Both the position numbers and the translations under genes were made by a program. From a virus, in the IMG/VR virus record IMGVR_UViG_3300034819_000011, positions 1 through 24,003 of that record: DNA of 24,003 bases, one strand, 5' to 3'. A model generated the notes under the pieces. It searched no databases, was not told the DNA's origin, and saw only the letters and a list, made by a program, of their open reading frames with translations. Below are positions 389-19,071 of the stretch, in pieces (the stretch's first letter is position 1; each line of letters begins with the position of its first letter).

Positions 389-2344
389 ATGGCATCGCCA
401 CTGCCGGGCCAGCCGCTGACCTTCCGGGCGCGCGGATTGAGCGACGCGCAGGATTCGAGCAACGCTTTCCGCGGCGCCATGACGTCGCTCGCCGACCTCA
501 TCCCCAACCCGCGCACCAAGAATCAGTTCGTGCCGCGGCCGGCGGCGCAGCAGCTGACCAATTTCGCCGGCTCGGCGCTGAGCCAGGCGGGCGTGCCCAA
601 TGCGCTGCTGACGGTCGGCTCCATCGCCTATGGCATGTGCCCGGACGGCGCCGGTCCGTTCGCCGGCCTCGACGTGCCGTTCGCCTACAACACGCTGACC
701 AACGCCTTCCTGCCGATCTCGATTCCGGGCGGCGCGGCTGATCTGCCGACCTCGCCGGCGGCGCTGGGCGACTGGACGCCGCCGACGATGGTGGTGGTGG
801 CGAGCCGCGTGCTGGTCACGCATCCGGGCTTCGCCGGCGGTGCCAAGAAATTCGGCTGGCTCGACGTGTCGGGCTTCACCGACAGCAGCCACACCGGCTC
901 GACGCACACCTCGACGCTGATCGACACGCTGTCGGCCAATGTGCTGCAAGCCGGCTGGCAGGTCGGCATGGCGATCGCCGGCGCGGGGATCCAGGCCAAC
1001 ACGACGATCGTGTCCATCGCCGCCGACGGACTGTCGCTGGTGCTGTCGAAGGCGGCGACGGCCACGGCGGCCGGGGTGGCGCTGACCGTCACCGGCGGCA
1101 CCGCCGCGGCGCCGCTATGGGCCTCGGGCGACACCAACGGCAACAACCTGGCATCGGTGCCGGTGGCGGTGTCGCAATTCAACGGCCGCGCTTATTTCGC
1201 CGTCGGCGCCGGGCTCGTCTTCTCCGATGCCGGCAATCCCTGCCAGGTCACCAACGCGACGCAGGCGGTGAGCTTCCGGAACGGCGTCAACGTCACCGGC
1301 ATGGGCGGCATCGGCCTCTTCTCGTCGACGGTCGGCGGCATCATCCAGTCGCTGATGGCGTTCCAGGGCGACGCCCAGGTCTGGCAGGTGCAGGGCGACA
1401 TCACCTTCACCTCGGGCCTGACCATCAACGCGCTGCTGTCGGGCGTCGGCACGCTGGCGCCCAACACCATCGAGCAGACGCCCTTCGGCCTCGCCTTCGT
1501 CGCACCCGACGGCGTCAGAATCATCGACGCCACCGCCAAGTTCTCCGATCCCATCGGCCATGACGGCGACGGCGTGGTGGCGCCCTTCCTGTTCGCCATC
1601 AACCCGTCGCGCATGGTGGCGTCCTACAACCAGGGCGTCTATCGCATCACCGTCATCAACGGCGGCGGGCCGCAGCAGCTGACGCAGGAATATTGGCTCG
1701 ACATGACCCGGAAGATTTGGACCGGGCCGCACAGCTTCCCCTGCGCGATGATCGCCGCGCTGCAGGGCGTCGACAACTCCTTCGTCTGCGCCGGTGTCGG
1801 CATCGCCGGCAAGCTGTTCCAGAGCGACCCGGAGCCGGGGCTGGCCTCGACCTATGTCGAGCAGGGCGCGCAGATGAAATGGACGTGGCAGACCTGCCTG
1901 CTGCCCGACAACGAGTCGATGTCGCAGAACGCCATGGTGCTGGCGCAGCTCATGGCGTCGATCGGCAACGGTCAGACCATGACGGTGATCTGCCTCAACG
2001 AGCAAGGCAGCTCGCTCGCGACCGTCGTGCTCAACGGCCCGACCGCCAAGGATACGGTTTGGGGCCAGTTCACTTGGGGCCAGGCGCCATGGGGCGGGCC
2101 GGGCTCGGTGCTCTTCCAGCATCCGCTGCCGTGGGCCGCGGCGGTCGTCTTCAAGCAGATGAGCGTGCGCATCCAGGGCTCGTCGGCGCCGGCCACGATC
2201 ATCGGCAACCTCTACATGCAGCTTGAGGAATTGGACTACGTGACCGACGTGCTGACGCTGGCGCCCAGCGCGCCGATCCCGGTCCCGGCGCCGCCGCCGA
2301 CCTCGCCTACCTTCGACAGCCCCATACCAACGGTGTTCCCATGA
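389..2344 (+). CDS. Probable tail hub / DNA-stabilisation protein (P22 gp10-like position)
   Basis: This is a 651-residue beta-rich protein without signal peptide or membrane segment. The N-terminus (about 30-60) carries a Pro/Arg-rich linker with NPRTKNQFVPRP. The middle and C-terminal parts contain recurring short strands with Trp and aromatic turns, for example EYWLDMTRKIWTGPHSFP around residue 438 and VWGQFTWGQAPWGGPG near 555. Such patterns are typical of beta-propeller virion proteins that plug the portal in podoviruses. The C-terminus is Pro-rich. The ATG lies 3 bases after the upstream stop and has no clear Shine-Dalgarno sequence, which suggests termination-reinitiation. The stop overlaps the next start as ATGA. 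The assignment as hub/stopper rests on size, composition and position; I could not test homology. Confidence 0.6.
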   Translation: MASPLPGQPLTFRARGLSDAQDSSNAFRGAMTSLADLIPNPRTKNQFVPRPAAQQLTNFAGSALSQAGVPNALLTVGSIAYGMCPDGAGPFAGLDVPFAYNTLTNAFLPISIPGGAADLPTSPAALGDWTPPTMVVVASRVLVTHPGFAGGAKKFGWLDVSGFTDSSHTGSTHTSTLIDTLSANVLQAGWQVGMAIAGAGIQANTTIVSIAADGLSLVLSKAATATAAGVALTVTGGTAAAPLWASGDTNGNNLASVPVAVSQFNGRAYFAVGAGLVFSDAGNPCQVTNATQAVSFRNGVNVTGMGGIGLFSSTVGGIIQSLMAFQGDAQVWQVQGDITFTSGLTINALLSGVGTLAPNTIEQTPFGLAFVAPDGVRIIDATAKFSDPIGHDGDGVVAPFLFAINPSRMVASYNQGVYRITVINGGGPQQLTQEYWLDMTRKIWTGPHSFPCAMIAALQGVDNSFVCAGVGIAGKLFQSDPEPGLASTYVEQGAQMKWTWQTCLLPDNESMSQNAMVLAQLMASIGNGQTMTVICLNEQGSSLATVVLNGPTAKDTVWGQFTWGQAPWGGPGSVLFQHPLPWAAAVVFKQMSVRIQGSSAPATIIGNLYMQLEELDYVTDVLTLAPSAPIPVPAPPPTSPTFDSPIPTVFP

Positions 2345-3048
2345 TGAAACGCATGTTGCGCGGCCTCGGCCGCTTCTCTGGCCGCGTCGCCGTCGATGTC
2401 ACGGTGATCCTGGCGATCTTCGCCGCCGTCGCCTTCTCGGCGACGCTGACGCTCAAGGACGGCCTCAACAATCTCTACACCTACCAGGTGACCGTCGCCG
2501 GCCTCAACGTCATCAGCAACACGGCGATCTGCGACAGCACCGACGGCACGGTATGCGCCAAGGTGGCGGGCGGCGGCCTCTCGGTGGGCGGTCAGTCGCC
2601 GGTCGGCATCGCGATCACCGGCAACCCGCTGCTCGACGGCTGCCGCGCGCAGACCGCGGAGCAGACGGCTGTGCTCGACGGCCGCCAGGCGATCGGCGCC
2701 TGCGACGTGCTGGGCCGCCGCATCATCGCGCCCTACGCCAACAAGGAGCTGTTCGTACAGGGCAAGGGCACGCAGACCTCGACCACCGCGACCACGATCA
2801 TCGCCGCGCAGGGCGCCGGGGTGAAGATTTACGTGACCTCGATCCAGTGCGGCAACAGCGGCGCGTCGGCGAGCACCATCGCGCTCAACGACACCAGCGG
2901 CTTCACGATGATGAACCCGGCCGGCGGCGGCTTTACCACGACGCTGCCGGTGCCGCTGGTGGTCGCGGCCAACACGGCGCTGCAATTCACGCCGAGCTCG
3001 GCCAGCACGACCCAAATCTGCAACGCGCAGGGATACGCCGGCTCGTGA
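2341..3048 (+). CDS. Membrane-anchored phage jelly-roll domain protein
   Basis: The protein has 235 residues. Basic residues at 3-14 are followed by a hydrophobic segment at about 16-36 (VAVDVTVILAIFAAVAFSA) without an obvious cleavage motif, so it may be an N-terminal anchor. The rest is a repetitive beta-sandwich domain of a type common beside phage tail-fibre genes. It contains DGCRAQTAE, the PYANKELFVQG segment and a C-terminal module with IYVTSIQCGNSG, AANTALQFT and AQGYAGS. The protein has six cysteines. The C-terminal module resembles that of the gene at 8621-9541. The start is coupled to the previous stop (ATGA), with a second Met directly after the first. The role is probably virion decoration or receptor binding; why a membrane segment is attached is unclear. 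Confidence 0.7.
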   Translation: MMKRMLRGLGRFSGRVAVDVTVILAIFAAVAFSATLTLKDGLNNLYTYQVTVAGLNVISNTAICDSTDGTVCAKVAGGGLSVGGQSPVGIAITGNPLLDGCRAQTAEQTAVLDGRQAIGACDVLGRRIIAPYANKELFVQGKGTQTSTTATTIIAAQGAGVKIYVTSIQCGNSGASASTIALNDTSGFTMMNPAGGGFTTTLPVPLVVAANTALQFTPSSASTTQICNAQGYAGS

Positions 3049-5192
3049 TCCGCAAGCTCGCCCTCGCCCTCGCGCTCTGGCTGGCGCCGCTCCCGGCGCT
3101 GGCGGCGCTCGCCATCGACAGCCAGGAAAGCGCCAACACCGGGCACGCCGGCGCGTCGCCGCTGACCTGGAGCTTCACCAACACCGCCGGCACGCTGCTG
3201 ATCGTCGGCGTGTGCCTGAACAACACCGCGGCGGGAACTCCGGCCGTCTCGGCGGTGACCTACAACGGCGTTGCCATGTCGGCGATCTCCGGCACCACCA
3301 ACACCGGCGTCTCCGGCAGCTCGACCACCGTCTGCACGCTCTACCAGCTGCTGAGCCCGGCGACCGGCGCGCACACGGTCTCGGTGACGTGGGCCGGAAA
3401 CTGCGGCGGGTGCTATGCCGACGCGATCGCCGGCGCCATCTCGTTCACCGGCAACAATTCGACGACGCCCACCGGCAACCCAGGCACGGCCAGCGATACC
3501 AGCGGCGCCAGCAGCGCGGCCACCGTGTCGCTCACGGGCACGGCCAGCGGCGACTATGTGGTGAGCCTCGTGGCGACCGGGTCGGCGGTCGGCGGGGGGT
3601 CGGGGTCGACCACGACGTCATGGAAGCTCAACGTCACGACCAACGACGCGGGCGACAACGCGGCGCTAGGCCAGCAGACGACCGCCGGCGGCACGGTATC
3701 GGCCGGCTTCAGCGTCACACCCGACCTCTGGTTCATGTCGGCGATCGAGGTGTTCGCTGGCGGCGGCGCCGCACCACCAACGCCGACCAACGGCCTCGAG
3801 CTGGTGTCGGTCGGCGGCACGCTCAACCACGGCGACGGCAGCCCGGGCGGCGGCGGTGGGGCGCTCGCGCCTGGCTTCTTCGTGTCGAGCACCGGCAACG
3901 ACAACAATCTCGGCACCCTGGCCTCGCCGTGGGCGACGATCTTCCACGCGCAGCAGGTCATGCGCGGCAACAACTGCGGCACGGTGCCGACCGGGATCTG
4001 CCTGACCTACGTCAGGAGCGGCACCTACAACCTGACGTCCGCCATCAGCGCGACTTCGGCCGACAATGGCGAGACGCTGCAATTCTACCCGCCCGACGGC
4101 GTCAACACCGCCATCCTCGACGGCGGCAACACCATCGACGGCATCTTCCAGCTTAACGGCGTCACCAATTTCACGATCAACGGCCTCAAGATACAGAATC
4201 CGGTGGCGCTGGCGGTGTTCTGCGGCAACGCGTGCAACGGCCTGACCCTCAAGAACAGCGACATCAGCCTCAATCACAGCGGCAATAGCGCGCTCGGCTT
4301 CGGCGGATTCGCGCCGATCCTGGGCCTCTTCGGCAGGAACATGCTGATCTCGCACAACGCCGTGCACGACGCGGCCGGGACCGGGATCGGGGTCTACGCC
4401 TTCGCGTCGGGCGACAGCATCGACGGCACGGTGATCGACGGCAACGCGGTCTACCGCATCGGCCAGAGCGTCAACGACGATGGCGCGATCTACTGCGACA
4501 TGCACGCCAACAACCTCAATGGCGGGCACATCACGATCAGCAATAACTATGTCGTCGACTACGGCGCGAGCGGGGTGCAGTCGGAGGGCATCTATCTCGA
4601 CGACGACTGCTCAAATGCCACGGTGACCGGCAACATCATCGGCCCGCCGAACGTCAACATGAATACTTTCGGCAACTTCCGCGCCGACATCCTGATAAAC
4701 GGCGGCTGCTGCAACACCTTCCAGAACAACCTCGTCGACCTCGGCGCGACCGCCGCCGACGCGGGCAACTGGATCTACGGCATGTCGAACAACAGCGGCA
4801 GCGGCGGCAGCATCCCGTTCACCTGGACCAGCTCGAACATCTTCCAGAACAACATCGTCATCAGCGGCTATTCGTCGAACAGCCTGACGACCCGCGACGG
4901 CGTGGTCTATGACCAGGCGGGCGGCACGCCGACGCAATTCGTCTCCATCCAGAAGAACGCCTACCACAACTACGGCGGCGGCATCGAGGCGACCAACGGC
5001 ACGCTGGTCAGCGACATCAGCCCGCAGCACTACACGCCGACGCAGCTCGGCCTGCTGTCGTGCCCGAACGGGGTCTATGCGGTGTCGGGCGGCAGCACGG
5101 TCACCGGCGCACCCGTCAGTTTCCCGCTGCTGCCGACGAGCTGGGGCCCGCCGGGCTTCACGCCGCCGGCCACCCCCAACCATTCCTGCTGA
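3045..5192 (+). CDS. Secreted-type right-handed beta-helix tailspike-like protein
   Basis: The product has 715 residues from a GTG start that overlaps the previous stop (GTGA). This start is preferred over upstream in-frame ATGs because it gives a clean Sec signal peptide (VIRKLALALALWLAPLPALA, cleavage after ALA near residue 20) resembling that of the next gene. Residues about 25-235 form a Thr/Ser/Gly-rich Ig- or lectin-like domain. A Gly linker follows near 260-270. From about 280 there is a pectate-lyase-like parallel beta-helix opening with FFVSSTGNDNNLGTLASPW and then repeated N-x-[IV]-x-[NG] turns. The protein has fourteen cysteines, including a C-terminal one. The likely role is polysaccharide binding or depolymerisation at the host surface. 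No catalytic residues can be assigned by eye. Confidence 0.75.
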   Translation: MIRKLALALALWLAPLPALAALAIDSQESANTGHAGASPLTWSFTNTAGTLLIVGVCLNNTAAGTPAVSAVTYNGVAMSAISGTTNTGVSGSSTTVCTLYQLLSPATGAHTVSVTWAGNCGGCYADAIAGAISFTGNNSTTPTGNPGTASDTSGASSAATVSLTGTASGDYVVSLVATGSAVGGGSGSTTTSWKLNVTTNDAGDNAALGQQTTAGGTVSAGFSVTPDLWFMSAIEVFAGGGAAPPTPTNGLELVSVGGTLNHGDGSPGGGGGALAPGFFVSSTGNDNNLGTLASPWATIFHAQQVMRGNNCGTVPTGICLTYVRSGTYNLTSAISATSADNGETLQFYPPDGVNTAILDGGNTIDGIFQLNGVTNFTINGLKIQNPVALAVFCGNACNGLTLKNSDISLNHSGNSALGFGGFAPILGLFGRNMLISHNAVHDAAGTGIGVYAFASGDSIDGTVIDGNAVYRIGQSVNDDGAIYCDMHANNLNGGHITISNNYVVDYGASGVQSEGIYLDDDCSNATVTGNIIGPPNVNMNTFGNFRADILINGGCCNTFQNNLVDLGATAADAGNWIYGMSNNSGSGGSIPFTWTSSNIFQNNIVISGYSSNSLTTRDGVVYDQAGGTPTQFVSIQKNAYHNYGGGIEATNGTLVSDISPQHYTPTQLGLLSCPNGVYAVSGGSTVTGAPVSFPLLPTSWGPPGFTPPATPNHSC

Positions 5193-5201
5193 GAGGCACG
5201 C

Positions 5202-6047
5202 ATGATCCGCAAGCTCCTTCTGACCCTCTCGGCGCTGGTCGCCCTAGCGTCTCCGGCGCTGGCGCTCAACTGCGCGCCGCTGCCCTTCACCATCGCCAAC
5301 GGCCAGCCCGCCGACGCCTCGCAGGTGATGGCTGATCTGAGCAACATCGAGAACTGCGCCAATCAGAACCTGGCGCACAACGGCGCCAATTCCGACATCA
5401 CGTCGCTCTCCGGGCTGACGACGCCGCTCTCGGTGGCGCAGGGCGGCACCGGCACTTCGACGGGCGTGGCGAACCCGTTCACCACCGGCGACGTCAAGCT
5501 GACGCTTAAGACCTCGGCCGACAGCGGCTGGGTGATGATTAACGACGGCTCCATCGGCGACATCAGCTCGGGTGCGACGACGCGCGCCAATGGCGACACC
5601 GTGGCGCTCTACACGCTGGTATGGACGAATTGCGCCAACGCGCAGTGTCCGGTGGCGGGCGGTCGCGGCGTCAGCGCGGCGGCGGATTTCGTGGCCGAGA
5701 AGGCGATCACGCTGCCGCTGGCGCTGGGCCGGGCGCTGGCGATAGCGGGTAGCGGCTCGGGCCTCACCGCGCGGGCGCTCGGTGCCACGACCGGCGCGGA
5801 GACCGCGACCATCGCCCAGGCCAACCTGCCGGACTATGTGCTGCCCGATCCCGGCCACTCCCATACGGTGGTTGCCGCACTAGGCGGCGCGGTCGGCGGC
5901 GCCGTGGCGGGTGGCGGCAACCCCCTCACGAATTCGACCATCACCAGCTCTACAAGCACGACCGGCGTCCATCTCGGCGGCAGCGGCACGCCGCTGAGCC
6001 TGATGCAGCCGACGACTTTCGCGGTGAACATCGAAGTCAAGCTGTGA
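5202..6047 (+). CDS. Phage tail-collar / tail-fibre protein with signal peptide
   Basis: The protein has 281 residues and a good ribosome-binding site (GAGAGG). The N-terminus is a Sec-type signal peptide ending SPALA at about residue 20. Residues 75-90 contain PLSVAQGGTGTSTG, the GGTG motif typical of tail-fibre shafts. Residues about 110-230 resemble the phage tail collar domain: GWVMINDGSIGD, then LGATTGAETATIAQANLPDY and a PGHSH metal-type motif. The C-terminus (MQPTTFAVNIEVKL) matches the usual end of tail-collar fibres. It has four cysteines. The domain call is strong. The signal peptide is odd for a virion protein that would normally assemble in the cytoplasm. Confidence 0.85.
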   Translation: MIRKLLLTLSALVALASPALALNCAPLPFTIANGQPADASQVMADLSNIENCANQNLAHNGANSDITSLSGLTTPLSVAQGGTGTSTGVANPFTTGDVKLTLKTSADSGWVMINDGSIGDISSGATTRANGDTVALYTLVWTNCANAQCPVAGGRGVSAAADFVAEKAITLPLALGRALAIAGSGSGLTARALGATTGAETATIAQANLPDYVLPDPGHSHTVVAALGGAVGGAVAGGGNPLTNSTITSSTSTTGVHLGGSGTPLSLMQPTTFAVNIEVKL

Positions 6048-6057
6048 GGAGGCGAGC

Positions 6058-6321
6058 ATGTTCGGCATGAGCCGCGAGGACCGCCGCCGCCTCGATGAGG
6101 TCGAGCGGACGGCCAGGGAAGCCCGGGATGCCGGGACCAAGGCGACATCCGAGCTGGCCGGTCACACGGCCGTCTGCACCGAGCGACACAGCAATATCAC
6201 CAAGCGGCTCGGCGACATCGAGAAGACGCTCGGCGGGGTCAACACGAAGGGCTGGGCGATCCTGCTCGCCATGCTCGGCGCGATCTGCCTGGAGATCGCC
6301 AAGGCGAGGGGCCTGTTCTGA
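6058..6321 (+). CDS. Small coiled-coil membrane protein (holin- or XhlA-like)
   Basis: The protein has 87 residues and a strong ribosome-binding site (GAGGAG) 5-10 bases before the ATG. Residues 1-62 are highly charged and helical with heptad-like spacing (coiled coil). Residues about 66-82 form one transmembrane helix (GWAILLAMLGAICLEIA), followed by a short basic tail. This cytoplasmic coil plus C-terminal anchor layout matches small XhlA-type or holin-associated phage proteins. It is the only lysis candidate in the cassette. No endolysin or spanin is visible in the window, so the lysis role is a guess from topology. Confidence 0.6.
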   Translation: MFGMSREDRRRLDEVERTAREARDAGTKATSELAGHTAVCTERHSNITKRLGDIEKTLGGVNTKGWAILLAMLGAICLEIAKARGLF

Positions 6322-6329
6322 GAAAAAGA

Positions 6330-6359
6330 GGCCCGCGCGACGTGGAACGCCGGCGGGCC
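6330..6359 (+). terminator. Hairpin, weak terminator candidate
   Basis: A perfect 7-bp inverted repeat (GGCCCGC / GCGGGCC) starts 9 bases after the stop of the holin-like gene. Only three T follow on the + strand, whereas the opposite strand would end in a run of five T. It may limit readthrough into the next block of tail-fibre genes. Confidence 0.3.
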
Positions 6360-6422
6360 AGTTTGGGAGGAAACGCCGTGGAAGCGTCTCGGGGAGCACC
6401 CTAGCACACTCGCAAGGGATGG

Positions 6423-6467
6423 TATATGCTCCTCGCCGAACCCACTAGATGTTGGGCCTCGCCCAAC
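6423..6467 (+). promoter_or_regulatory. Candidate promoter -10 and hairpin just before the ribosome-binding site
   Basis: The 160-bp gap 6322-6481 is the largest in the late region. It holds TATATG at 6423-6428, an AT-rich -10-like hexamer in very GC-rich DNA, though no convincing -35 is seen. At 6451-6467 there is a perfect inverted repeat GTTGGGC-CTC-GCCCAAC whose 3' arm ends directly before the GGGGAG ribosome-binding site of the gene starting at 6482. The hairpin could control access to that site. The promoter is weakly supported; the inverted repeat is certain. Confidence 0.35.
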
Positions 6468-6481
6468 GGGGAGATGGACCG

Positions 6482-7705
6482 ATGCTGACCATTCGACGCT
6501 GGCGCCCGATCGTTGCCGCGCTGGCCGCGCTCCTGCTCACCGCGGGCGCCCAAGCCGCCAGCCTGCCGCAGTTCACCGGCCCCGCCGGCACCAACCCGGC
6601 GATGAACCCGACGATCCTCGGCGACCTCAACGCCACGATCAACGCCATCAATTCCGGCGTCACGCCCGGGTCGATGGCGACCTTCTCGGCCAACCGCAAT
6701 TTCCTCGACAACGGCGGCATGTCGGTCGCCCAGCGCGGCACCGCCGCCGCCACCGGTGGCACGACCAGCGGCTGCCCGCTCACCACCTACGTCGCCGACC
6801 GCTGGTGCGTCGATACCAACGTCACGTCGGGCGCCGGCAAGGGCCAGGTGGTCACCTCGACGCCGACCCCGCCCGCCGGCTTCACCAACTCGATGACGGT
6901 CTTCCGCAACTCCGGCGCGCTGCTGCAGCCGGTGTGCGCCATCCAGGAAATCAAGACGTCCAACGCGACGCAGCTCGCCGGCCAGCCGGTCGTGCTCAGC
7001 TTCTACGCCCAGGCGCTTGCTGGCCTCGCCGCCGATAACGGCAACGTCATCAACGCGACGATCATCACCGGCACCGGCACCGATCAGGGTCTCGGCACGC
7101 TGACCGCGTCGCCGGCGATCACCCCGGCCTGGACCGGCCTCGCCACGCCGCTCAATGCCCAGGCGCAGACGATCACCACGTCGTGGGTCCGCTACACCAT
7201 GCCGGCGGTGGTCATCGGCTCGACCGCGACCGAGGTCGGCGTCGAGCTGTGCTTCACCCCGACGGCGACCGGCGCGGGCACCACCGACGGCTTCGCGGTG
7301 ACCGGCGTCCAGCTCGAGCAGGGCAATGTCGCGTCGCCCTTCGAGTTCCGGCCGCTCGAGGTCGAGCTCGCCCGCGCGCAGAACTACTACTACCGCTACG
7401 CCGAGCTGGCCGCGGCCTACCAGTTGAACGGGGTGTGCGAGGCGACCGGCGCCGCCACCAACTCGTGCACGCTCAATCTGCCGCAGCAGATGTTCAAGAT
7501 CCCGACCATCGCCATCACGACGGCGGGCACCTTCAAGGTGAACATCGCGGGCACGCTGACCACCATCGCGACGCCGACGGCGGGCGCCTGCGGCCTCAAC
7601 ACCTGCCTGGTCACCGCGGCCAATACCAACACGGCGGGCCAGGTCGAGCTGCTCTCGGGCGCGGCGGGCGGCAGCGGCGTGTGGGAAGTCAGCGCGGACT
7701 TCTAA
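6482..7705 (+). CDS. Tail-fibre protein with carbohydrate-binding-type module and signal peptide
   Basis: The product has 407 residues. The ATG at 6482 is chosen over the in-frame ATG at 6449 because GGGGAG precedes it and it begins a standard signal peptide (residues 1-26, RRWRP then a hydrophobic core, cleavage near GAQA). Residues about 70-110 carry NRNFLDNGGMSVAQRG and YVADRWCVD. Residues about 278-310 carry TGVQLEQGNVASPFEFRP followed by ELARAQNYYYRY. Both are hallmarks of a widespread phage tail-fibre module thought to bind carbohydrate. The C-terminal 100 residues are a separate Thr-rich domain. It has eight cysteines. The family call is strong; the need for a signal peptide is unexplained. 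Confidence 0.8.
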   Translation: MLTIRRWRPIVAALAALLLTAGAQAASLPQFTGPAGTNPAMNPTILGDLNATINAINSGVTPGSMATFSANRNFLDNGGMSVAQRGTAAATGGTTSGCPLTTYVADRWCVDTNVTSGAGKGQVVTSTPTPPAGFTNSMTVFRNSGALLQPVCAIQEIKTSNATQLAGQPVVLSFYAQALAGLAADNGNVINATIITGTGTDQGLGTLTASPAITPAWTGLATPLNAQAQTITTSWVRYTMPAVVIGSTATEVGVELCFTPTATGAGTTDGFAVTGVQLEQGNVASPFEFRPLEVELARAQNYYYRYAELAAAYQLNGVCEATGAATNSCTLNLPQQMFKIPTIAITTAGTFKVNIAGTLTTIATPTAGACGLNTCLVTAANTNTAGQVELLSGAAGGSGVWEVSADF

Positions 7706-7708
7706 GCG

Positions 7709-8104
7709 GTGGCCGATCCCTGGACGATAACTGCCCGGGCCGCTGCCGGGTCGCCGTCGAGTGCGACGCAAGCCGCACCCGCCAGCGCCGGCACGACCAC
7801 GACGACCAACCGGACGGTGGTGCGGCTGCGCGCGCTGCAGTGCCGTCTGTCGGGCAGCGCGGCCGGGACCGACCTGCTGGTGGTGCGCGACGGCGCCACC
7901 GGCGCGGGCACGATCATCTGGCAGCAGGATCTGTCGGTGCCGGCCAATGGCAGCGACAGCGTCAACGTCACCGGGCTCGACCTGCGCGCGACGCCCGGCA
8001 ACGGACTCACCGTCGAGTTCGTCTCGGGCGTGGCGTCCGACCGAGAGGACGTGAACGCGCAGGGCGATTTCGTGCCGCAGGGCTACCCGATCGGGCAGCC
8101 GTAA
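7709..8104 (+). CDS. Small beta-sandwich phage protein
   Basis: The product has 131 residues from a GTG start 3 bases after the preceding stop. It has no signal peptide, unlike its neighbours. The first 35 residues are Ala/Ser/Thr-rich. The rest (about 38-125) is a compact beta-rich domain with LLVVRDGATGAGTIIWQQ and GLDLRATPGNGLTVEF, resembling short decoration- or fibre-type domains found among tail genes. It has one cysteine. The function is unknown; a structural or fibre-tip role is inferred from fold style and position. Confidence 0.7.
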   Translation: MADPWTITARAAAGSPSSATQAAPASAGTTTTTNRTVVRLRALQCRLSGSAAGTDLLVVRDGATGAGTIIWQQDLSVPANGSDSVNVTGLDLRATPGNGLTVEFVSGVASDREDVNAQGDFVPQGYPIGQP

Positions 8105-8114
8105 GGAGAGGACC

Positions 8115-8624
8115 ATGAGCGACGCGCTTTCGCCGGCCGACGTCCAGAACCTGATGCTGCTGTCGGCGCTCAAGACCGACGACGCGATGGCCGAGCGGAT
8201 CAAGAAGCTGCTGGCGGCGCACCAGGCGAACGAGGACACGCTGGCGCAGGTGCGCGAGGAGCGCGCCGCGGCGCACGCCGAGCTTGAGGAGGCGCGCAAG
8301 CTGTCCGCTGCATCCCAGGCGCGGCAGGCCGAGGCCGAGGAGCGCATGGTGAAGCTCGCGCACCAGGAGACGGGCCTGGGCGAGGCGATCACCACGCACA
8401 ACGCCGACGTGAAGGCGTTCAACGAGATCCGCGCGCAGATCGAGGCGGACCTGAAAGAGCGCACCGCGAAGCTCGAAGCGGCCGAGACCCTCGTAGTCGC
8501 GCGCAGCCAGGCGCTGGCCGATCGCGAGGTGTCGGTGCAAATGATGCACAACGACTACGTCGCGTCGCTCGACAGCCTGCGGGCCAAGCACGCCGAGCTG
8601 GCCGCAATCATCGCCCGCGAATGA
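8115..8624 (+). CDS. Coiled-coil protein in the fibre cassette
   Basis: The protein has 169 residues and is preceded by AAGGAGAG. It is almost wholly helical and charged: residues about 25-125 are rich in Glu, Ala, Lys and Arg with heptad spacing and no prolines, indicating a long coiled coil. It has no cysteines, no membrane segment and no signal peptide. Its stop overlaps the start of the next gene as ATGA, so the two are probably translated together. It could be a trimerising stalk or a fibre-assembly chaperone; neither can be decided from sequence. Confidence 0.75.
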   Translation: MSDALSPADVQNLMLLSALKTDDAMAERIKKLLAAHQANEDTLAQVREERAAAHAELEEARKLSAASQARQAEAEERMVKLAHQETGLGEAITTHNADVKAFNEIRAQIEADLKERTAKLEAAETLVVARSQALADREVSVQMMHNDYVASLDSLRAKHAELAAIIARE

Positions 8625-9541
8625 GGCTGCTCGCCGCCCTGCTGCTGGCGCTCTTGCTGGCAAGCGAGGCGCGCGCCGATAGCCTCACCGTCCAAACCTG
8701 CGGGACGCTGCCGCTGGCCTACCGGCCGGGCGCGGTCGTCAGCGGCACGGTCGACGTCAACGGCAATACCTGCATCAGCGGCAGCATCAGCGCGAGTTCG
8801 GCGCTCAATGCGACATCGACACTGCCGACGCTCGCGGCCGGCCCGCAGTCGCCGCAGGGCAGTCTCGCCGGGGCCGCCTATGTGCAGCCGGTGTTCGGCT
8901 CGGCGAGCGGCGGCGGAACGCAGGTCGACCTGACGCACGGCCTCCCGGTGCAGCAGCAGACCGGCGCCAGCTTTGCCGTCACGGGCACGTTCTTCCAGGC
9001 GACGCAGCCGGTCAGCGCGGTCTCCTGGCCGCTGCCGACGGGCGCCGCGCAGGACTCGTCGCTGACGACCATCGACACAGACGTCAAGGGCACCCAGCCG
9101 CGCAACGTCGCGCAGATCGCCGGCACGGTTCCCGCGATGAAGGCGAGCGGCACCAATGCGGCGACGACCGACGCCTCGCTGGTGGTCGCGCCGTCGCCCA
9201 ATCCATCGACGGTCTGCACCTCGTCGATCGCCATAAACCAGACGAGCTCGACCGATCTGGTGACCTCGACCAACAAGCTGCACATCTGCGCCATCCTGCT
9301 GGTGAGCGCCACGGCGCAGAACCTGTCCCTGGTGGAGGGCACCGGCACCGTCTGCGCCACCGGCATCGCGGCGCTGATCGGCGGCACGACGGCATCCGTC
9401 GCTGTGGCGGCGAATGGCGGCTTCTCCACGCCGTCCGACCGCGCCTGGCTCGTGACCAAGACGACCGCCGATCATCTGTGCCTGCTGCAAAGCGCTGGTG
9501 GCAACGTCTCCGGCGTCATCACCTACGTCGACCACAACTGA
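8621..9541 (+). CDS. Exported fibre-like protein with C-terminal jelly-roll module
   Basis: The protein has 306 residues with a start coupled to the upstream stop (ATGA). The signal peptide covers residues 1-19 (MRLLAALLLALLLASEARA, cleavage before DS). Residues about 85-115 contain AAYVQPVFGSASGGG and QVDLTHGLPVQ, a style seen in phage fibre or decoration proteins. The last 110 residues form a beta-sandwich with KLHICAILLVSATAQNLSL that resembles the C-terminal module of the gene at 2341-3048. It has six cysteines. It is probably a receptor-binding or surface protein, but export would place the mature form in the periplasm or outside. Confidence 0.7.
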   Translation: MRLLAALLLALLLASEARADSLTVQTCGTLPLAYRPGAVVSGTVDVNGNTCISGSISASSALNATSTLPTLAAGPQSPQGSLAGAAYVQPVFGSASGGGTQVDLTHGLPVQQQTGASFAVTGTFFQATQPVSAVSWPLPTGAAQDSSLTTIDTDVKGTQPRNVAQIAGTVPAMKASGTNAATTDASLVVAPSPNPSTVCTSSIAINQTSSTDLVTSTNKLHICAILLVSATAQNLSLVEGTGTVCATGIAALIGGTTASVAVAANGGFSTPSDRAWLVTKTTADHLCLLQSAGGNVSGVITYVDHN

Positions 9542-9553
9542 GGCAAGACCTTC

Positions 9554-9988
9554 ATGCGCAAGATCCTGATTTCGCTGGCGCTGGTTTTCATGGCTGGCCC
9601 GGCGCTGGCGGCGGCGACGCCCTCGCCCAATCTCAACGATCAGGCGGTGCTTGCCGCCGACACGCTGTTCCAGAACCGCGCGCTGGAATCGTTCTTCGGC
9701 TTCTGCGCCAACTCGATCAAGGGCGAGGGCACGACGGTCGCCTATCACAACCAGCGCAGCGCGCTCTGCCAGCAGGTGCTGCTCGCGCAGGCCACCGGCA
9801 CGGGGAGCTGGAAGGTGGTCTTGGCGCAGGTCGCCGCGGCGAACGCCACCGTGGTGGGCGACGCGACGGCCGCGGGCGCGACGCCGCTGACGAGCGCCAA
9901 CGCCGACGCGCAGCAGGCTCTGGTGGTCGACACCGACCTCAACAACGCGCTGGCGGCGGCGTTTAACGAGTTCCTCGGCCAGCCGTGA
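9554..9988 (+). CDS. Exported small phage protein of unknown function
   Basis: The protein has 144 residues. A classic signal peptide (residues 1-20, MRKILISLALVFMAGPALAA) precedes a helical domain with DTLFQNRALESFFGFCANSI, AYHNQRSALCQQVL and TDLNNALAAAFNEFLG. The mature part resembles a family of small helical proteins that occur beside phage structural genes, normally without an export signal. That family recollection is from memory and is not checked. It has two cysteines. Its stop overlaps the next start (TGATG). Confidence 0.65.
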   Translation: MRKILISLALVFMAGPALAAATPSPNLNDQAVLAADTLFQNRALESFFGFCANSIKGEGTTVAYHNQRSALCQQVLLAQATGTGSWKVVLAQVAAANATVVGDATAAGATPLTSANADAQQALVVDTDLNNALAAAFNEFLGQP

Positions 9989-10650
9989 TGCGTCGTCTCC
10001 TCCTCGCGCTGGCGCTGCTGTGGGCGGCGCCGGCCGAGGCGGCGGTCGTGTGGTCGGCGAGCGACCACGGCGCCAGCATCAGCGGCGGCGGCACGCTCAC
10101 CACGACGGCCACCGCGACCACCGACGAGATGGGGCGGGCGACCGTCAGCTTCAGCTCCGGCAAGCTTTATTTCGAGTTCACCGACAACGACGCCACCAAC
10201 GTTTTGGGCGGCTGGTCCAACGCGACCGAGTCCACCGCGCACATCCTCGGCCTGACGGCGACCAACAGCATCGGCATCCGCGGGTCCAATGGCATCCTGT
10301 TCAGCGGGGCCAACGCCAACGACGGCACCTTCACCGCCGGCGACCGCATCGCCATCGCCTTCGACATCGGCAACATGATCCTGTGGTGGAAGGACATCAC
10401 CACCGCCTCGGCCTGGCACCCGAGCGGCGACCCCAACCTCGGCACCGGCGGCTGGACGAGCGCCAACGACCCGGGCTTCACCAGCGCCAATTTCCCCGGC
10501 CCCTATTTCCCGGCTTACAGCTTCAGCCTCAACGCCTCGAGCGTGACCGCCGACTTCACGCCGGCCTCTTTCACCGGGGCGATCCCCACCGGATTCCAGG
10601 CGGTCGACCCCTCGGCGTCGGCCCGGGCGCTGCTGGGCGTGGGGCAGTAG
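9988..10650 (+). CDS. SPRY / concanavalin-like domain protein with signal peptide
   Basis: The product has 220 residues from the ATG at 9988; a GTG at 9985 would add one residue. The signal peptide covers residues 1-18 (MRRLLLALALLWAAPAEA). Residues about 48-200 match a SPRY/ConA-like beta-sandwich: SGKLYFEFT, GDRIAIAFDIGNMILWWK, a WHPSGDPNLGTGG loop and PYFPAYSF. Such domains occur in phage fibre proteins and bind glycans or protein ligands. It has no cysteines. It is the last of the exported cassette genes before the 73-bp gap at 10651-10723. Confidence 0.75.
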   Translation: MRRLLLALALLWAAPAEAAVVWSASDHGASISGGGTLTTTATATTDEMGRATVSFSSGKLYFEFTDNDATNVLGGWSNATESTAHILGLTATNSIGIRGSNGILFSGANANDGTFTAGDRIAIAFDIGNMILWWKDITTASAWHPSGDPNLGTGGWTSANDPGFTSANFPGPYFPAYSFSLNASSVTADFTPASFTGAIPTGFQAVDPSASARALLGVGQ

Positions 10651-10670
10651 CGCGGCCAGCCGATCCCAGC

Positions 10671-10676
10671 TATAGT
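10671..10676 (+). promoter_or_regulatory. Possible -10 element
   Basis: TATAGT stands out in GC-rich DNA within the short gap 10651-10723, about 50 bases before the next gene. No matching -35 hexamer is evident. This is weak support only. Confidence 0.2.
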
Positions 10677-10723
10677 AGGCCGCACAGAACGACCTACCAC
10701 CTATTGATCGGAGGGCTTCGGCC

Positions 10724-10879
10724 ATGGCTAAGGGCAGCGGTTTCAACGCGAAGGACACCGGCAACATCCCGTCCGGTCCCAAGGCTTCGGACCTCGGCGT
10801 GCCCGCGGCGCCGGCGCGCTCGACCGTCAATGACGGCGCGGTGCGCGAGAAGGTCGCCAAGAACCCGTCCGGCGGCTGA
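10724..10879 (+). CDS. 51-residue hypothetical phage protein
   Basis: A short open frame begins with MAKGSGFNAKD and ends in NPSGG. CGGAGG lies 8 bases before the ATG, the codons share the third-position G/C bias of the region, and it fills the space between two real genes exactly. It is polar and Gly/Pro/Lys-rich, probably disordered, with no cysteines or hydrophobic segment. The function is not known. Its place just before the oxygenase/cupin pair may be coincidental. Confidence 0.65.
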   Translation: MAKGSGFNAKDTGNIPSGPKASDLGVPAAPARSTVNDGAVREKVAKNPSGG

Positions 10880-10889
10880 GGGCTGCCCG

Positions 10890-11480
10890 ATGGGCCTCCG
10901 CGCCATCGGGCATGTCGAGACCTTTCCGGCGGTCGCCCGGCTGCACAAGCTGACGCACGGCGACCCCTGGAAGGGCACGGCGGACTGCGCCGTGATGGAC
11001 GACAAGGACCTGCCGCACAAGACGCTGATCCTGCGGCACCACAAGAACCCCTCGGCCGAGAACATCGCCGACGACCTGCCGGTGCACGACAGCCCGGAAT
11101 ACGAGAAGTTTCCGGTGTGGAAGAACCTGGTCGCGCGCGCCCGGAAGCTGATCTTCGCCGACCCGATGATGCGCGATCTGCTCGACGCCTCGGCGCCGCT
11201 CGGCCGGGTGGTCATCTCGGTGCTGGCGCCCAAGAGCCTGATGACGCCGCACAAGGACGTCGGCGACTACGCCAAGCGGCACATGCGCTTTCACATCCCG
11301 CTGGTCACCAACCCGCACTGCACGCTCTACGCCGCCAATACGCAGGCGCACATCCCGGTCGGGCTGCTGACCTGGCTCGACGTGCTCGAGCTGCACTGGG
11401 CGGCGAACTGGGCGCAGGCGGGCGCTCGGTCGCATCTGATCTTCGAGCTTCGCCGCCGCGACGCGGGAGGCGACGAGTGA
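10890..11480 (+). CDS. Aspartyl/asparaginyl beta-hydroxylase-type 2-oxoglutarate/Fe(II) oxygenase
   Basis: The product has 196 residues from the ATG at 10890, the first in-frame ATG after the upstream gene; the open frame extends far upstream but only through antisense-like sequence. The iron-binding facial triad is visible as H121-x-D123 (TPHKDVGD) and H169 (LELHW). R180 lies 11 residues later as the expected 2-oxoglutarate-binding Arg (GARSHLIFEL). The MRFHIPLVTNPHCTLY core fits the Asp/Asn hydroxylase family. These enzymes hydroxylate side chains or small substrates. The stop overlaps the cupin start (GTGA), so the two are probably translated together. The substrate is unknown; possible targets are a virion protein, a host protein or a small molecule. 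Confidence 0.8.
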   Translation: MGLRAIGHVETFPAVARLHKLTHGDPWKGTADCAVMDDKDLPHKTLILRHHKNPSAENIADDLPVHDSPEYEKFPVWKNLVARARKLIFADPMMRDLLDASAPLGRVVISVLAPKSLMTPHKDVGDYAKRHMRFHIPLVTNPHCTLYAANTQAHIPVGLLTWLDVLELHWAANWAQAGARSHLIFELRRRDAGGDE

Positions 11481-11845
11481 CGCCGATCGGCATACCGGCG
11501 GGCATGACCGCCGACGAGATGGCGGTCGCCGATGTCGGCCAGCTGCGGCCGGGCGATGGCGAGTTCTACGTCGACGACTGGCTGTTCCTGAAGCTCTACC
11601 CGCTCAAGGCCGGCGAGATGGTGGCGCAGCACGTGCACCTCTACGACCACGTGACGGTGGTCGCGACCGGCACCGTGCGGCTCACCATCGACGGCGTCGA
11701 CCAGGGCGAAGTCACCGGGCCGAAGCCGGTCACCATCCGCGCGCTGGCGCAACACAGCATGGTCGCGGTCACCGACGCGCTGCTGTTCTGCGCGCACAAC
11801 CTGCGCGGCGAAGGCTATCCGGCGCTGGCCGGTCAGGAGGACTGA
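11477..11845 (+). CDS. Small cupin-domain protein
   Basis: The product has 122 residues from a GTG that overlaps the oxygenase stop, with GGGAGG upstream. Cupin motif 1 is clear at about residues 44-64: GEMVAQHVHLYDHVTVVATG, with the paired metal-binding histidines H-x-H plus a further His in place of the usual Glu. Motif 2 at about 83-112 includes IRALAQHSMVAV and a FCAHNL ending. It is a single-domain cupin likely to bind a divalent metal. It could be a small-molecule enzyme or a sensor working with the neighbouring oxygenase. The family call is strong and the substrate unknown. Confidence 0.8.
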   Translation: MTPIGIPAGMTADEMAVADVGQLRPGDGEFYVDDWLFLKLYPLKAGEMVAQHVHLYDHVTVVATGTVRLTIDGVDQGEVTGPKPVTIRALAQHSMVAVTDALLFCAHNLRGEGYPALAGQED

Positions 11846-11846
11846 A

Positions 11847-12863
11847 ATGGCACCCGCAGCCTATGTCGGCGCCGCCGCGGCGGCAGGCTCCCTGGCGCTC
11901 AACGTCTCCAATTCGATGGGCGGCTCGGGCGTGCCGCAGAGCTACCAGCTCGGCAACCAGCCGGGCCAGGATCTGAATTTCAACAACATCCAAAACCTCT
12001 ACGGCCAGTATGCGATGGCGCAGCCGGGACAGGTGATCCCGCAGTTCCAGCAGGCGCAGCGCAACATCAGCAACAACCCCTATGCCGGGCTGCAGCAGCA
12101 GGGCGCGGGCGCGGTGGCGAATCTCGGCGCCGGCGTGGCGGGCCAGCAGCTCAGCGGCGCCAACTCGCTGTTCGGCGCCGGCAACCAGGTGCTCGGCCAA
12201 GCCTTCGACCCGCAGCAGGCGCTCTACAACCGGACGCAGCAGCAGGTGATGGATCAGATCAACGCCGCGAATGCCGCGTCGGGGGTGAGCGGGCCGGCGG
12301 CGGCGGGCGTGGCGCAACAGGGCATCTCGAATTTCAACATCGACTGGCAGAACAACCTGCTCAACCGCGAGCGCATGGGCATCCAGGCGGGCGGGCAGGC
12401 CTTCGCCGGCGGCGCCGATCTCGGCAACCTCGGCCTCGGCACGATCGCGTCGAGCTCGGGCATGCCCTATAACACCTATCTCGGCCAGCAGCAGAACATC
12501 ATCGGCGGCCTCAACTCGCTCAACGCGGGCGTGCTCGGCGCCTTCGCGCTGCCGCAGCAGGAGTTGCAGAACACCGAGGCGTATCTCGGGCTGGGCCAGT
12601 CGGCGAACAACCTGGCGCTGATGGGGCAGCAGCAGAATTTCAACCAGGGCATGATGAACGGCGCCGGGCTGGCGAACTCGTCGCTCGCCTTCGCCAACAA
12701 CCCGCAGATCCAGAGCATGTTCCAGAGCGCCGGCTCGGGCATCAACAGCCTGTTCGCGCCGTCCAATCCGAACGTGACGGCGGGCGGCTCGCCGACCTTT
12801 GCGATGGGCGGCGCTTACGACCCGTCGAATTTCGGCGGCTTCGACTTCTCGCAGGCGGGCTGA
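11847..12863 (+). CDS. Internal virion / DNA-ejection-type protein
   Basis: The protein has 338 residues and the strongest ribosome-binding site of the region (AGGAGG). It is rich in Gln, Asn, Gly and Ala, with a short Ala-rich hydrophobic N-terminus (residues 3-18) and helical glutamine-rich segments. The stretch FDPQQALYNRTQQQVMDQI followed by NFNIDWQNNLLNRER (about residues 119-175) is characteristic of podovirus internal proteins in the position of T7 gp14 or P22 gp7. It heads a group of three such genes. The role inferred from family and position is to be carried in the capsid and delivered into the envelope to aid DNA entry. Confidence 0.7.
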   Translation: MAPAAYVGAAAAAGSLALNVSNSMGGSGVPQSYQLGNQPGQDLNFNNIQNLYGQYAMAQPGQVIPQFQQAQRNISNNPYAGLQQQGAGAVANLGAGVAGQQLSGANSLFGAGNQVLGQAFDPQQALYNRTQQQVMDQINAANAASGVSGPAAAGVAQQGISNFNIDWQNNLLNRERMGIQAGGQAFAGGADLGNLGLGTIASSSGMPYNTYLGQQQNIIGGLNSLNAGVLGAFALPQQELQNTEAYLGLGQSANNLALMGQQQNFNQGMMNGAGLANSSLAFANNPQIQSMFQSAGSGINSLFAPSNPNVTAGGSPTFAMGGAYDPSNFGGFDFSQAG

Positions 12864-12866
12864 GCC

Positions 12867-14078
12867 ATGCAGCCGGGCTTCGCCGCAGGCTTCGGCAACG
12901 AGCTGCCCAATGCGACGGCGATCCAGCAGCGTCTCATGGAGGGCCGCGTTCGGCTGCAGCAGCAGGCGCAGCAGCAGCAGGCGGCCGAGGCGTTCTTCAA
13001 GTCGCTGGTGACGCCGGACGCCGCGGCCATCCCGCAGCAGGGCCCGCCTGGCATGGGCCAAGCGCCGCCGCCCGGCACGATGACGCAGGGCGCCGGCCCG
13101 GTGCCACCCTCGACCGGCCAGGTTCCGGGCATGCCGCCCGGTGGCGGCGCTCCCTCACCGGCACCAGCCCCCCCGGTGCCGGGGCCCGCCGGCGGTTCAC
13201 CGTCGCCCGCGACGGCCGCCGGCGGGCTTCAGCTTCCCGACCCGCTGGTGCGGCTGCGGGCCATGGCGCAGGCGCTGAAGGCCGCCAATCCCCACGCCGA
13301 CAACGCCACGCTCGCCGAGGCGCTCGACCGGCAGATCGCCACGGTGAAGGGCCTGGCGCCCGAGGACAAGGCGCTGATGCAGGCGCAGATCGCGCTGATG
13401 AACGCGCAGGCTCGCTACTACGCGGTCGACCGCAACAACGACACGCGGCGCGACATCGCCGATCGTGCCGCCGACACGCGGCTGACCGTCGCCGATCGCA
13501 CAAACAGCACGCGGCGCGACATCGCCAGCCAGACGAACCAGACCCGCCGAGACGTTGCGGGGGAAACCAACGACACCCGCCGGGACATCGCCGGCGAGAC
13601 CAACCAGACGCGGCGCGACGTGGCCGGCCAAGCGGAGGCTGGTCGCAACGCGCGGGCCGGCGCCGCCGAAGCCGGCCGCAACTCTCGAGCCGCGGCGCGC
13701 ATCGACGCCAGCAAGGCCGATGCCGGGGTCAAGGCGCAGTACAAGTCGCTGATGGCGCAGCGCGCCGAGATCAAGGACAAGATTGCCGCCTTCCAGAACG
13801 GCACGCCGGGCGCGCCGAAGAAGGAGGAGGTCGCCCAGCTTCAGGGCAAGCTTCAGCAGCTCGACAGCCAAGTGTCGGCGCTGTGGAGCCGCAACCCGAA
13901 CCTGCCGCGGCCGAGCGAGCTGGACCGTGAGCCGGGCGGCGCCGCGCCGTCGCCCGCCGCTGCGACGACGGCACCCGCGGCTGGCGGCATCCCCGAGGGC
14001 GCGCCGACGGCGACCGACGCGCAGGGCAACAAGGTCTACTGGGACGGCAAGGCGTGGCTCCCCGCGCCCAAGGGGTGA
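12867..14078 (+). CDS. Internal virion-type protein with 11-residue repeats
   Basis: The protein has 403 residues. Residues 1-45 are helical and Gln-rich, 50-120 are Pro/Gly-rich and disordered, 125-185 are helical, and 190-277 consist of eight consecutive 11-residue repeats of the type TN-x-TRRD-[IV]-A-x-x. After a further coiled-coil stretch (280-335) a Pro/Ala tail ends in VYWDGKAWLPAPKG. Hendecad repeats usually form long right-handed helical bundles, which suits an extended ejection protein or a membrane- or DNA-contacting rod. It has no cysteines. The start follows a TGA-GCC-ATG junction without a clear ribosome-binding site. Grouping with its two neighbours suggests a second ejection protein. 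Confidence 0.7.
   Translation: MQPGFAAGFGNELPNATAIQQRLMEGRVRLQQQAQQQQAAEAFFKSLVTPDAAAIPQQGPPGMGQAPPPGTMTQGAGPVPPSTGQVPGMPPGGGAPSPAPAPPVPGPAGGSPSPATAAGGLQLPDPLVRLRAMAQALKAANPHADNATLAEALDRQIATVKGLAPEDKALMQAQIALMNAQARYYAVDRNNDTRRDIADRAADTRLTVADRTNSTRRDIASQTNQTRRDVAGETNDTRRDIAGETNQTRRDVAGQAEAGRNARAGAAEAGRNSRAAARIDASKADAGVKAQYKSLMAQRAEIKDKIAAFQNGTPGAPKKEEVAQLQGKLQQLDSQVSALWSRNPNLPRPSELDREPGGAAPSPAAATTAPAAGGIPEGAPTATDAQGNKVYWDGKAWLPAPKG
13434..13697 (+). repeat. Eight tandem 33-bp (11-codon) repeats
   Basis: These are degenerate in-frame repeats coding residues 190-277 of the preceding entry. Repeats 3-6 are the most alike (TNxTRRD[IV]Axx), while units 7-8 diverge to AEAGRN[AS]RAxA. Confidence 0.85.
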
Positions 14079-14081
14079 GCC

Positions 14082-16958: not shown

Positions 16959-17071
16959 TGGGCAAACAGGGCTGGATCGACCTCGCGTTCATCATCGGAT
17001 TCTCCATGGCACCCGCTGTCGCATTCTGCGTCGCCTTCGCGGTGCTCTGCCTCGTATTCGGGATCAAATGA
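16958..17071 (+). CDS. 37-residue single-pass membrane peptide
   Basis: A short open frame begins MGKQGWIDLAF and is almost entirely hydrophobic (two near-contiguous segments, residues 8-35), ending in FGIK. It is coupled on both sides: ATG overlaps the previous stop by one base and its own stop overlaps the next start (ATGA). This perfect fit between two genes supports translation. The function is unknown; a small envelope protein or holin-type peptide are possibilities. Confidence 0.6.
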   Translation: MGKQGWIDLAFIIGFSMAPAVAFCVAFAVLCLVFGIK

Positions 17072-18641: not shown

Positions 18642-18880
18642 TCGACGGGTCGCAGTTGCGAGACCTGGCCCGGCACGAACGGGCCGATAAAGTCGATCGT
18701 CACGATGTTGTGGTAGACGATCCACATCTTGTCCGACGGAATGCCGCCAGCACCCTTCGCTTTCTGCACGAAATCGGGAAGGCTGTCGGGCGAGGCGACC
18801 GCGACCGAAAACCCATTGATGCAGACGATCCGGTAGTTGTTGAGGATCGGCGCTGCGGCGGGCGCGGCGGGGTCGCTCAT
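18638..18880 (-). CDS. 80-residue hypothetical phage protein
   Basis: This is the last gene of the leftward operon. Its start overlaps the upstream stop (ATGA) and its stop overlaps the stop of the convergent + strand gene by three bases. The N-terminus (MSDPAAPAAAP) is flexible. The rest looks like a small alpha/beta domain with NYRIVCINGFSVAVASPD, then IPSDKMWIVYHNIVTIDF. It has one cysteine and no export signal. I do not recognise the family. Confidence 0.6.
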   Translation of the reverse strand: MSDPAAPAAAPILNNYRIVCINGFSVAVASPDSLPDFVQKAKGAGGIPSDKMWIVYHNIVTIDFIGPFVPGQVSQLRPVD

Positions 18881-19071
18881 TGCGGGACCATCCCCCTGGC
18901 GTGCTGGTCGAACAGGTCGCGGATACGGTCAACCAGCGCGTCGTACTGCGGCTTGTCGATGACGCAAAGGACTCGCCCCTCTCGGTCGGCCTGGATGCTT
19001 GGCATCTGCGCTACCGCTGTCGCCGCTGCGCCGATGGCGATCCCGACCGCCAGGGTGATGATCGTCCTCAT
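18877..19071 (-). CDS. 64-residue exported or membrane-anchored small protein
   Basis: Residues 1-21 (MRTIITLAVGIAIGAAATAVA) form a hydrophobic N-terminus with a possible signal peptidase site (AVA before QM), or an uncleaved anchor. The remaining 43 residues are charged and helical (YDALVDRIRDLFDQH) with a single cysteine. Starts and stops overlap both neighbours as ATGA. The function is unknown. It is the only leftward gene with an export-type N-terminus and echoes the pattern in the late cassette. Confidence 0.6.
   Translation of the reverse strand: MRTIITLAVGIAIGAAATAVAQMPSIQADREGRVLCVIDKPQYDALVDRIRDLFDQHARGMVPQ

Follow-up and report, generated by a model that had tools for sequence, protein, structure and literature searches.

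Sec signal peptides on the fibre cassette of a podovirus: candidate tail fibres routed through the periplasm

Textbooks place the assembly of tail fibres in the cytoplasm. How, then, is a locus to be read in which one fibre-cassette gene after another appears to begin with a Sec signal? Host-recognising fibres with signals of this kind, present in a group of uncultured tailed phages, should be produced beyond the cytoplasm, the compartment in which the particle is assembled. Two readings follow: completion of the particle in an extracytoplasmic setting, or a different role for the fibres at the host surface.

The window, that is, the whole stretch of DNA analysed, is a complete IMG/VR record of 24,003 bases with a GC content of 62-75%. 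Its minus strand encodes an integrase, an Erf-like annealing protein and an exonuclease, with a radical SAM protein (19725-20618, minus strand; phrog_9298, 5.5e-16) adjoining the integrase, and the plus strand carries the late operon. The product of gene 389-2344 is modelled by AlphaFold2 with a pLDDT of 87 and a pTM of 0.85, and the top solved-structure matches of the model are podovirus nozzles (Pa223, Z 25.0; P22 gp10, Z 24.9). Judged by this nozzle-like predicted fold, the contig is from a podovirus. The cassette lies directly 3' of the nozzle, the usual podovirus fibre position, and its features, with signal peptides (SPs) as predicted, are the following.

389-2344, plus strand: tail nozzle (P22 gp10/T7 gp12-type), presumed anchor point of the fibre cassette (AlphaFold2 and fold matches)
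2341-3048, plus strand: 235-aa protein with a hydrophobic leader at about residues 17-35 and 6 Cys (sequence, Cys count)
3045-3104, plus strand: SP of a 715-aa fibre-like protein (gene 3045-5192), mature part with 14 Cys (SP scorer)
5202-5264, plus strand: SP of a 281-aa tail-collar fibre (gene 5202-6047), 4 Cys (SP scorer, tail-fibre PHROGs)
5271-5357, plus strand: anchor-like N-terminal module NCAPLPFTIANGQPADASQVMADLSNIENC of the 5202 protein, flanked by Cys24 and Cys52 (homologue comparison)
6058-6321, plus strand: small holin-like protein with a C-terminal hydrophobic segment (homologue at the same place in the SP-less relative L021, 6e-11)
6482-6556, plus strand: SP of a 407-aa tail fibre (gene 6482-7705), 8 Cys (SP scorer)
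6563-6655, plus strand: second N-terminal module, SLPQFTGPAGTNPAMNP..DLNATINAINS, of the 6482 protein, SP-less in L021 (homologue comparison)
7709-8624, plus strand: two SP-less cassette genes, 7709-8104 and 8115-8624 (SP scorer)
8621-8677, plus strand: SP of a 306-aa protein (gene 8621-9541), 6 Cys (SP scorer)
9554-9616, plus strand: SP of a 144-aa protein (gene 9554-9988), 2 Cys (SP scorer)
9988-10041, plus strand: SP of a 220-aa SPRY-like protein (gene 9988-10650), 0 Cys (SP scorer)
11847-16958, plus strand: three large genes (11847, 12867, 14082), 0 Cys and no SP (Cys count, SP scorer)

The three large genes occupy, by position and composition, the place of podovirus ejection proteins; family searches (PHROG etc.) gave no match of weight for them, and as Cys-free, SP-less products they form an internal contrast to the fibres. 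The stretch separating the fibre genes from these three encodes a 196-aa protein (10890-11480), aspartyl/asparaginyl hydroxylase-like by eye, and a cupin-like protein (11477-11845) whose gene is kept even in SP-less relatives. A 438-aa protein (17068-18384), ATP-grasp-like by eye, shows 45-57% identity throughout the phage group.

Signal peptides were called with a purpose-built scorer of the n-, h- and c-regions that includes the (-3,-1) rule. All six starts to which the preliminary description had assigned Sec signals (3045, 5202, 6482, 8621, 9554 and 9988) pass, with scores of 11.2-12.9, and by this scorer they present the hallmarks of Sec and signal peptidase I: a basic n-region, a hydrophobic core and small residues at -3 and -1. 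With a slash for the cut, cleavage is predicted at VIRKLALALALWLAPLPALA/ALA (3045), MIRKLLLTLSALVALASPALA/LNC (5202), MLTIRRWRPIVAALAALLLTAGAQA/ASL (6482), MRLLAALLLALLLASEARA/DSL (8621), MRKILISLALVFMAGPALAAA/TPS or alternatively ALA/AAT (9554), and MRRLLLALALLWAAPAEA/AVV (9988). Outside the six, just one gene model passes, a 64-aa gene (18877-19071, minus strand) that is not in the cassette. Scores of at least 11 are reached by none of 94 spurious non-coding ORFs (longest start) and by 2 of 768 spurious starts, and 3% of shuffled N-termini pass at any score; the assignment of Sec signals to the six starts is thus borne out. The 2341-3048 product is not called by the scorer, and its hydrophobic leader had been overlooked; its sequence makes it a likely seventh exported protein, by a signal anchor or a long signal.

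These calls depend on the gene starts. A gene caller blind to SPs chooses the identical six. Starts 3045, 8621 and 9988 are translationally coupled to the preceding gene (the ATG of 9988 overlaps the TGA of its neighbour), 5202 and 6482 have clear RBS-like purines, and 9554 has a weaker, farther RBS-like stretch. The gap before gene 6482 (6322-6481) contains strong GC-rich hairpins, one ending just 5' of the RBS, with a fold z-score of only -1.5. When codons inside the signal are excluded, the first later in-frame starts fall at residues 56 (3045), 42 (5202), 41 (6482), 88 (8621), 32 (9554) and 21 (9988). An annotation artefact, in which the real starts lie downstream and the leaders are untranslated, would fit the fact that SP-less homologues start at the module itself. 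It is nevertheless barely credible: the next starts of 5202 and 6482 fall inside the conserved module and would truncate it, SP starts are coupled to upstream genes, leaders stand at the same place in homologues of 39-48% identity, and leader status predicts cysteines in other parts of the protein. The check on true starts downstream of the signals, put forward beforehand, therefore leaves the SP starts as the natural gene starts.

What the mature proteins are is clear for part of the set. The 5202 protein has tail-fibre/collar matches (PHROG) and a poor monomer model (pLDDT 61); the 6482 protein matches tail fibre phrog_4492 (1.7e-25), the 3045 protein matches minor tail protein phrog_553 (1.4e-8), and the 9988 protein has a weak SPRY match (E 0.04; 1e-4 for its L190 homologue, L numbers denoting related loci). 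Pfam gave nothing useful on the six, and the 8621 and 9554 proteins have no significant Pfam or PHROG match, so that tail-fibre homology covers only part of the cassette. The domain assignments made earlier are accordingly supported only in part, and the beta-helix and jelly-roll are unconfirmed. One cultured phage, of Sphingomonas, shows a distant SPRY-like match; its tail proteins bear no SPs.

The N-terminal module of the 5202 protein occurs in two forms. A pattern scan for NGxxADAxQVM in viral and bacterial collections returned 124 distinct proteins, 71 with a leader and 53 without. In the leader-less form, the module begins near residue 12 and has no Cys pair; the leader-bearing form mostly has one Cys just before the module and another some 20 residues after. 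Such a flanking pair is present in 55/71 leader-bearing but 1/53 leader-less homologues (Fisher 2e-19), and the sole leader-less exception, L195, is itself a weak SP. Both forms share one gene position, the module gene standing immediately after the nozzle in 40/45 leader-less and 38/44 leader-bearing phages. On a tree of 86 nozzles, with leader changes counted on well-supported branches, the leader has been gained or lost at least 8 times, and in 8 independent contrasts the Cys pair tracked the SP in 5-6 and opposed it in none (sign test p 0.03-0.06). L021 has the window's gene order (nozzle, module-1 fibre, small holin-like gene, module-2 fibre), with both fibres SP-less. The pair Cys144/Cys149 in the collar domain of the 5202 protein was considered as a further export marker and is not diagnostic, as it is shared by the SP-less L196.

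The second fibre behaves similarly. Its close full-length homologues, taken from loci gathered for other reasons (L120, L024, L144 and L013; 39-48% identity), all four carry SPs, and within this SP-bearing family cysteines appear and vanish in pairs; no additional homologues emerged from a related-locus search with the 6482 protein or from a pattern search with its N-terminal module. The domain homologous to the 9988 protein forms, in L190, the C-terminal part of a protein with an SP and a Cys pair.

Even cysteine counts are favoured in exported bacterial proteins because of periplasmic disulfides (PMC7678975). Cysteine counts for the mature parts of the six proteins are, in order, 14, 4, 8, 6, 2 and 0, with 6 for the product of 2341. 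Among Cys-containing proteins without the 5202-type module, drawn from contigs with a nozzle homologue, the count is even in 44/51 SP but 325/761 non-SP proteins (Fisher 7e-10), a p value that, like the others for parity, is optimistic, as kin proteins are non-independent and the non-SP set holds some spurious gene calls. Module-bearing proteins have even counts in 25/30 SP versus 14/31 SP-less cases. Both the parity and the leader-linked pair are signs of folding in an oxidising compartment.

Export also looks like a trait of the whole phage. Other cassette genes bear SPs in 20/97 cases where the module-1 fibre is leader-bearing and in 6/201 where it is leader-less (odds ratio 8.4, kinship ignored). 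In L013, L014, L055, L075, L101 and L116, every cassette protein of at least 150 aa has a signal or hydrophobic leader, which leaves few other candidates for receptor binding. The L013 contig (46.7 kb) encodes a terminase, a portal and a major head protein; both its cassette fibres are leader-bearing, and one matches tail-fibre family phrog_4492 (6e-27). SP proteins bear ordinary tail-fibre C-terminal modules. Four observations coincide: cysteine counts tend to be even, the Cys pair comes only with a leader, leaders have repeatedly been gained or lost at a single locus, and phages with a leader-bearing module-1 fibre have SPs on their other cassette genes more often than phages without one. 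Export of the cassette proteins, and selection for it, are thereby well supported by sequence comparison, in keeping with the earlier proposal that the recurring signals reflect selection. Together, the even cysteines, the two forms of the 5202 module and the nozzle-tree contrasts identify tail-fibre orthologues redirected via Sec into an oxidising compartment, with cleavage and oxidation themselves probable.

The best explanation of the whole, on which we place even weight for and against, is that Sec-exported, periplasm-matured fibres complete the virion outside the cytoplasm. The podovirus tail fibres would be exported by Sec, presumably cut by signal peptidase, and would fold and probably form disulfides in the periplasm; fibreless virions would be built in the cytoplasm. 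Holin and endolysin would then open the envelope, fibres and virions would meet, and the mature fibres would attach at the nozzle, presumably after lysis. Cleavage would leave at the N-terminus the module with which SP-less fibres start, and this module may serve as the tail anchor. That exported fibres remain virion components, incorporated at lysis or later, has about an even chance of being right; the full statement, a tailed phage whose fibres pass through Sec, acquire periplasmic disulfides and are mounted on the tail during or following lysis, by a route gained or lost at least 8 times, falls a shade below that. Late joining is feasible by analogy with T4, whose long fibres can be added to particles completed without them (PMC3004832). 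Against post-lysis joining, the fibres would have to beat dilution. SP-less fibre candidates elsewhere in the L014 contig (459 and 606 aa) and the L013 contig also count against this explanation; the candidate in L013, 300 aa long and weakly matching tail fibres, keeps the L013 case short of airtight.

The main alternative is that the exported proteins are not virion parts but fibre-derived, phage-encoded surface or secreted adhesins or glycan-binding proteins, with roles such as receptor masking, superinfection exclusion, attachment, or a soluble depolymerase or decoy freed at lysis. Bacterial genomes supply one argument for this. A leader-bearing module protein is encoded at 23 bacterial-genome loci; YD/RHS-repeat ORFs share its 8-kb stretch in 20 of them and a nozzle in none, whereas YD repeats occur in 1/161 viral loci; the RHS neighbours in two of the bacterial-genome loci bear Tox-REase-7 or C39 peptidase domains. 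On alphaproteobacterial chromosomes (among L167-L194, e.g. L169, L176, L187 and L193), fibre-like proteins with a leader and Cys pair adjoin short YD/RHS-repeat ORFs, and each such gene with its RHS ORF may form an RHS-linked exported two-gene unit. These proteins (L169, L176, L187 etc.) resemble the window's in leader, module and Cys pair but differ in having YD/RHS-repeat ORFs nearby instead of phage genes, so the exported form seems able to work without a virion. L013 further encodes, at 3089-3814, a 241-aa SP protein without a PHROG match that looks like an alphaproteobacterial outer-membrane barrel, and SP-bearing phage proteins have been proposed elsewhere to act on host envelopes (PMC10367356). 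However, the window's genes overlap one another in the late operon right behind the nozzle, with no sigma-70-like site in a promoter scan of 2000-12000 and hence none within the cassette (a scan of little power at 70% GC), and Sec by itself delivers to the periplasm only. Were a leader to keep the fibre off the particle, the phage would have lost its fibre at every gain; yet the module is kept right after the cleavage site, which suggests an unchanged function for the mature protein and favours periplasm-matured fibres joining finished particles. A role apart from the virion is thus possible but doubtful. The earlier premise that export would take the fibres out of the particle finds no support here; the exported form retains both the module of the SP-less fibre and its place behind the nozzle, which argues for a retained virion role. 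The sequence evidence is not decisive between the two outcomes proposed at that time, exported adhesins and extracytoplasmic completion of the virion, but tilts towards the latter.

A further reading takes the leaders as uncleaved hydrophobic N-termini that serve virion assembly, membrane docking or DNA ejection. The longer, less typical leaders of some relatives (L013, L144) and the resemblance of the 2341 product to a signal anchor would suit it, but it is improbable: the A-x-A sites, even-cysteine bias and leader-linked Cys pair point to an oxidising compartment, and leader sequences diverge while their length and pattern remain typical.

If fibres go through Sec in a widespread phage group, the end point of virion assembly shifts, the disulfide hardening of extracellular fibres is explained, and host Sec and Dsb enzymes become host factors for infectivity. 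If they are non-virion adhesins, virion fibres have repeatedly been converted to proteins exported to the host surface, and these have an RHS-linked counterpart on bacterial chromosomes. The choice between virion and adhesin is directly testable in inducible prophages.

INPHARED contains no cultured phage with a nozzle of this family and no match for the window DNA, the 3045, 6482 and 9988 proteins or the two consensus N-terminal modules; its matches to the 5202 protein are the collar and repeat parts of SP-less fibres. In the open-access literature (subscription papers and preprints being outside the scope), signal peptides with export evidence were not found on tailed-phage fibres, and phage signal peptides are described on capsid, spanin, endolysin or unknown proteins (e.g. 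PMC10367356). Virion incorporation, if shown, would be categorically new for tailed phages.

The closest counterparts are the SP-less fibres of Burkholderia/Paraburkholderia-type prophages with the same nozzle family (e.g. L184, L045), which share the NGxxADAxQVM module, the place directly behind the nozzle and the downstream gene families g11477 and g11847, but have neither leader nor Cys pair and are cytoplasmic products. In filamentous phages, coat proteins such as pIII are virion proteins with Sec signals and disulfides; these phages assemble by extrusion through the membrane and have no tail, nozzle or terminase. An exported coat protein of the filamentous type is ruled out by the nozzle in the window and by the terminase, portal and major head protein of L013. 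PblA and PblB of Streptococcus mitis phage SM1 are tail-type proteins that reach the cell surface, but they have no Sec signal, are released by lysis and belong to a Gram-positive host. Lambda Lom is the product of an SP-bearing gene within the tail region and forms an outer-membrane barrel. A Lom-type conversion gene (moron) would be expected to have its own promoter and to be expressed in the lysogen, a point on which the promoter scan of the window, with no sigma-70-like site but little power at this GC, weighs little. Porphyromonas gingivalis phages also carry SP genes (PMC10367356). Lom and the P. gingivalis genes encode an outer-membrane barrel or unknown proteins, with no fibre orthologue and no link to a Cys pair. 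The cassette of the window is best described as known fibres taking an unexpected route.
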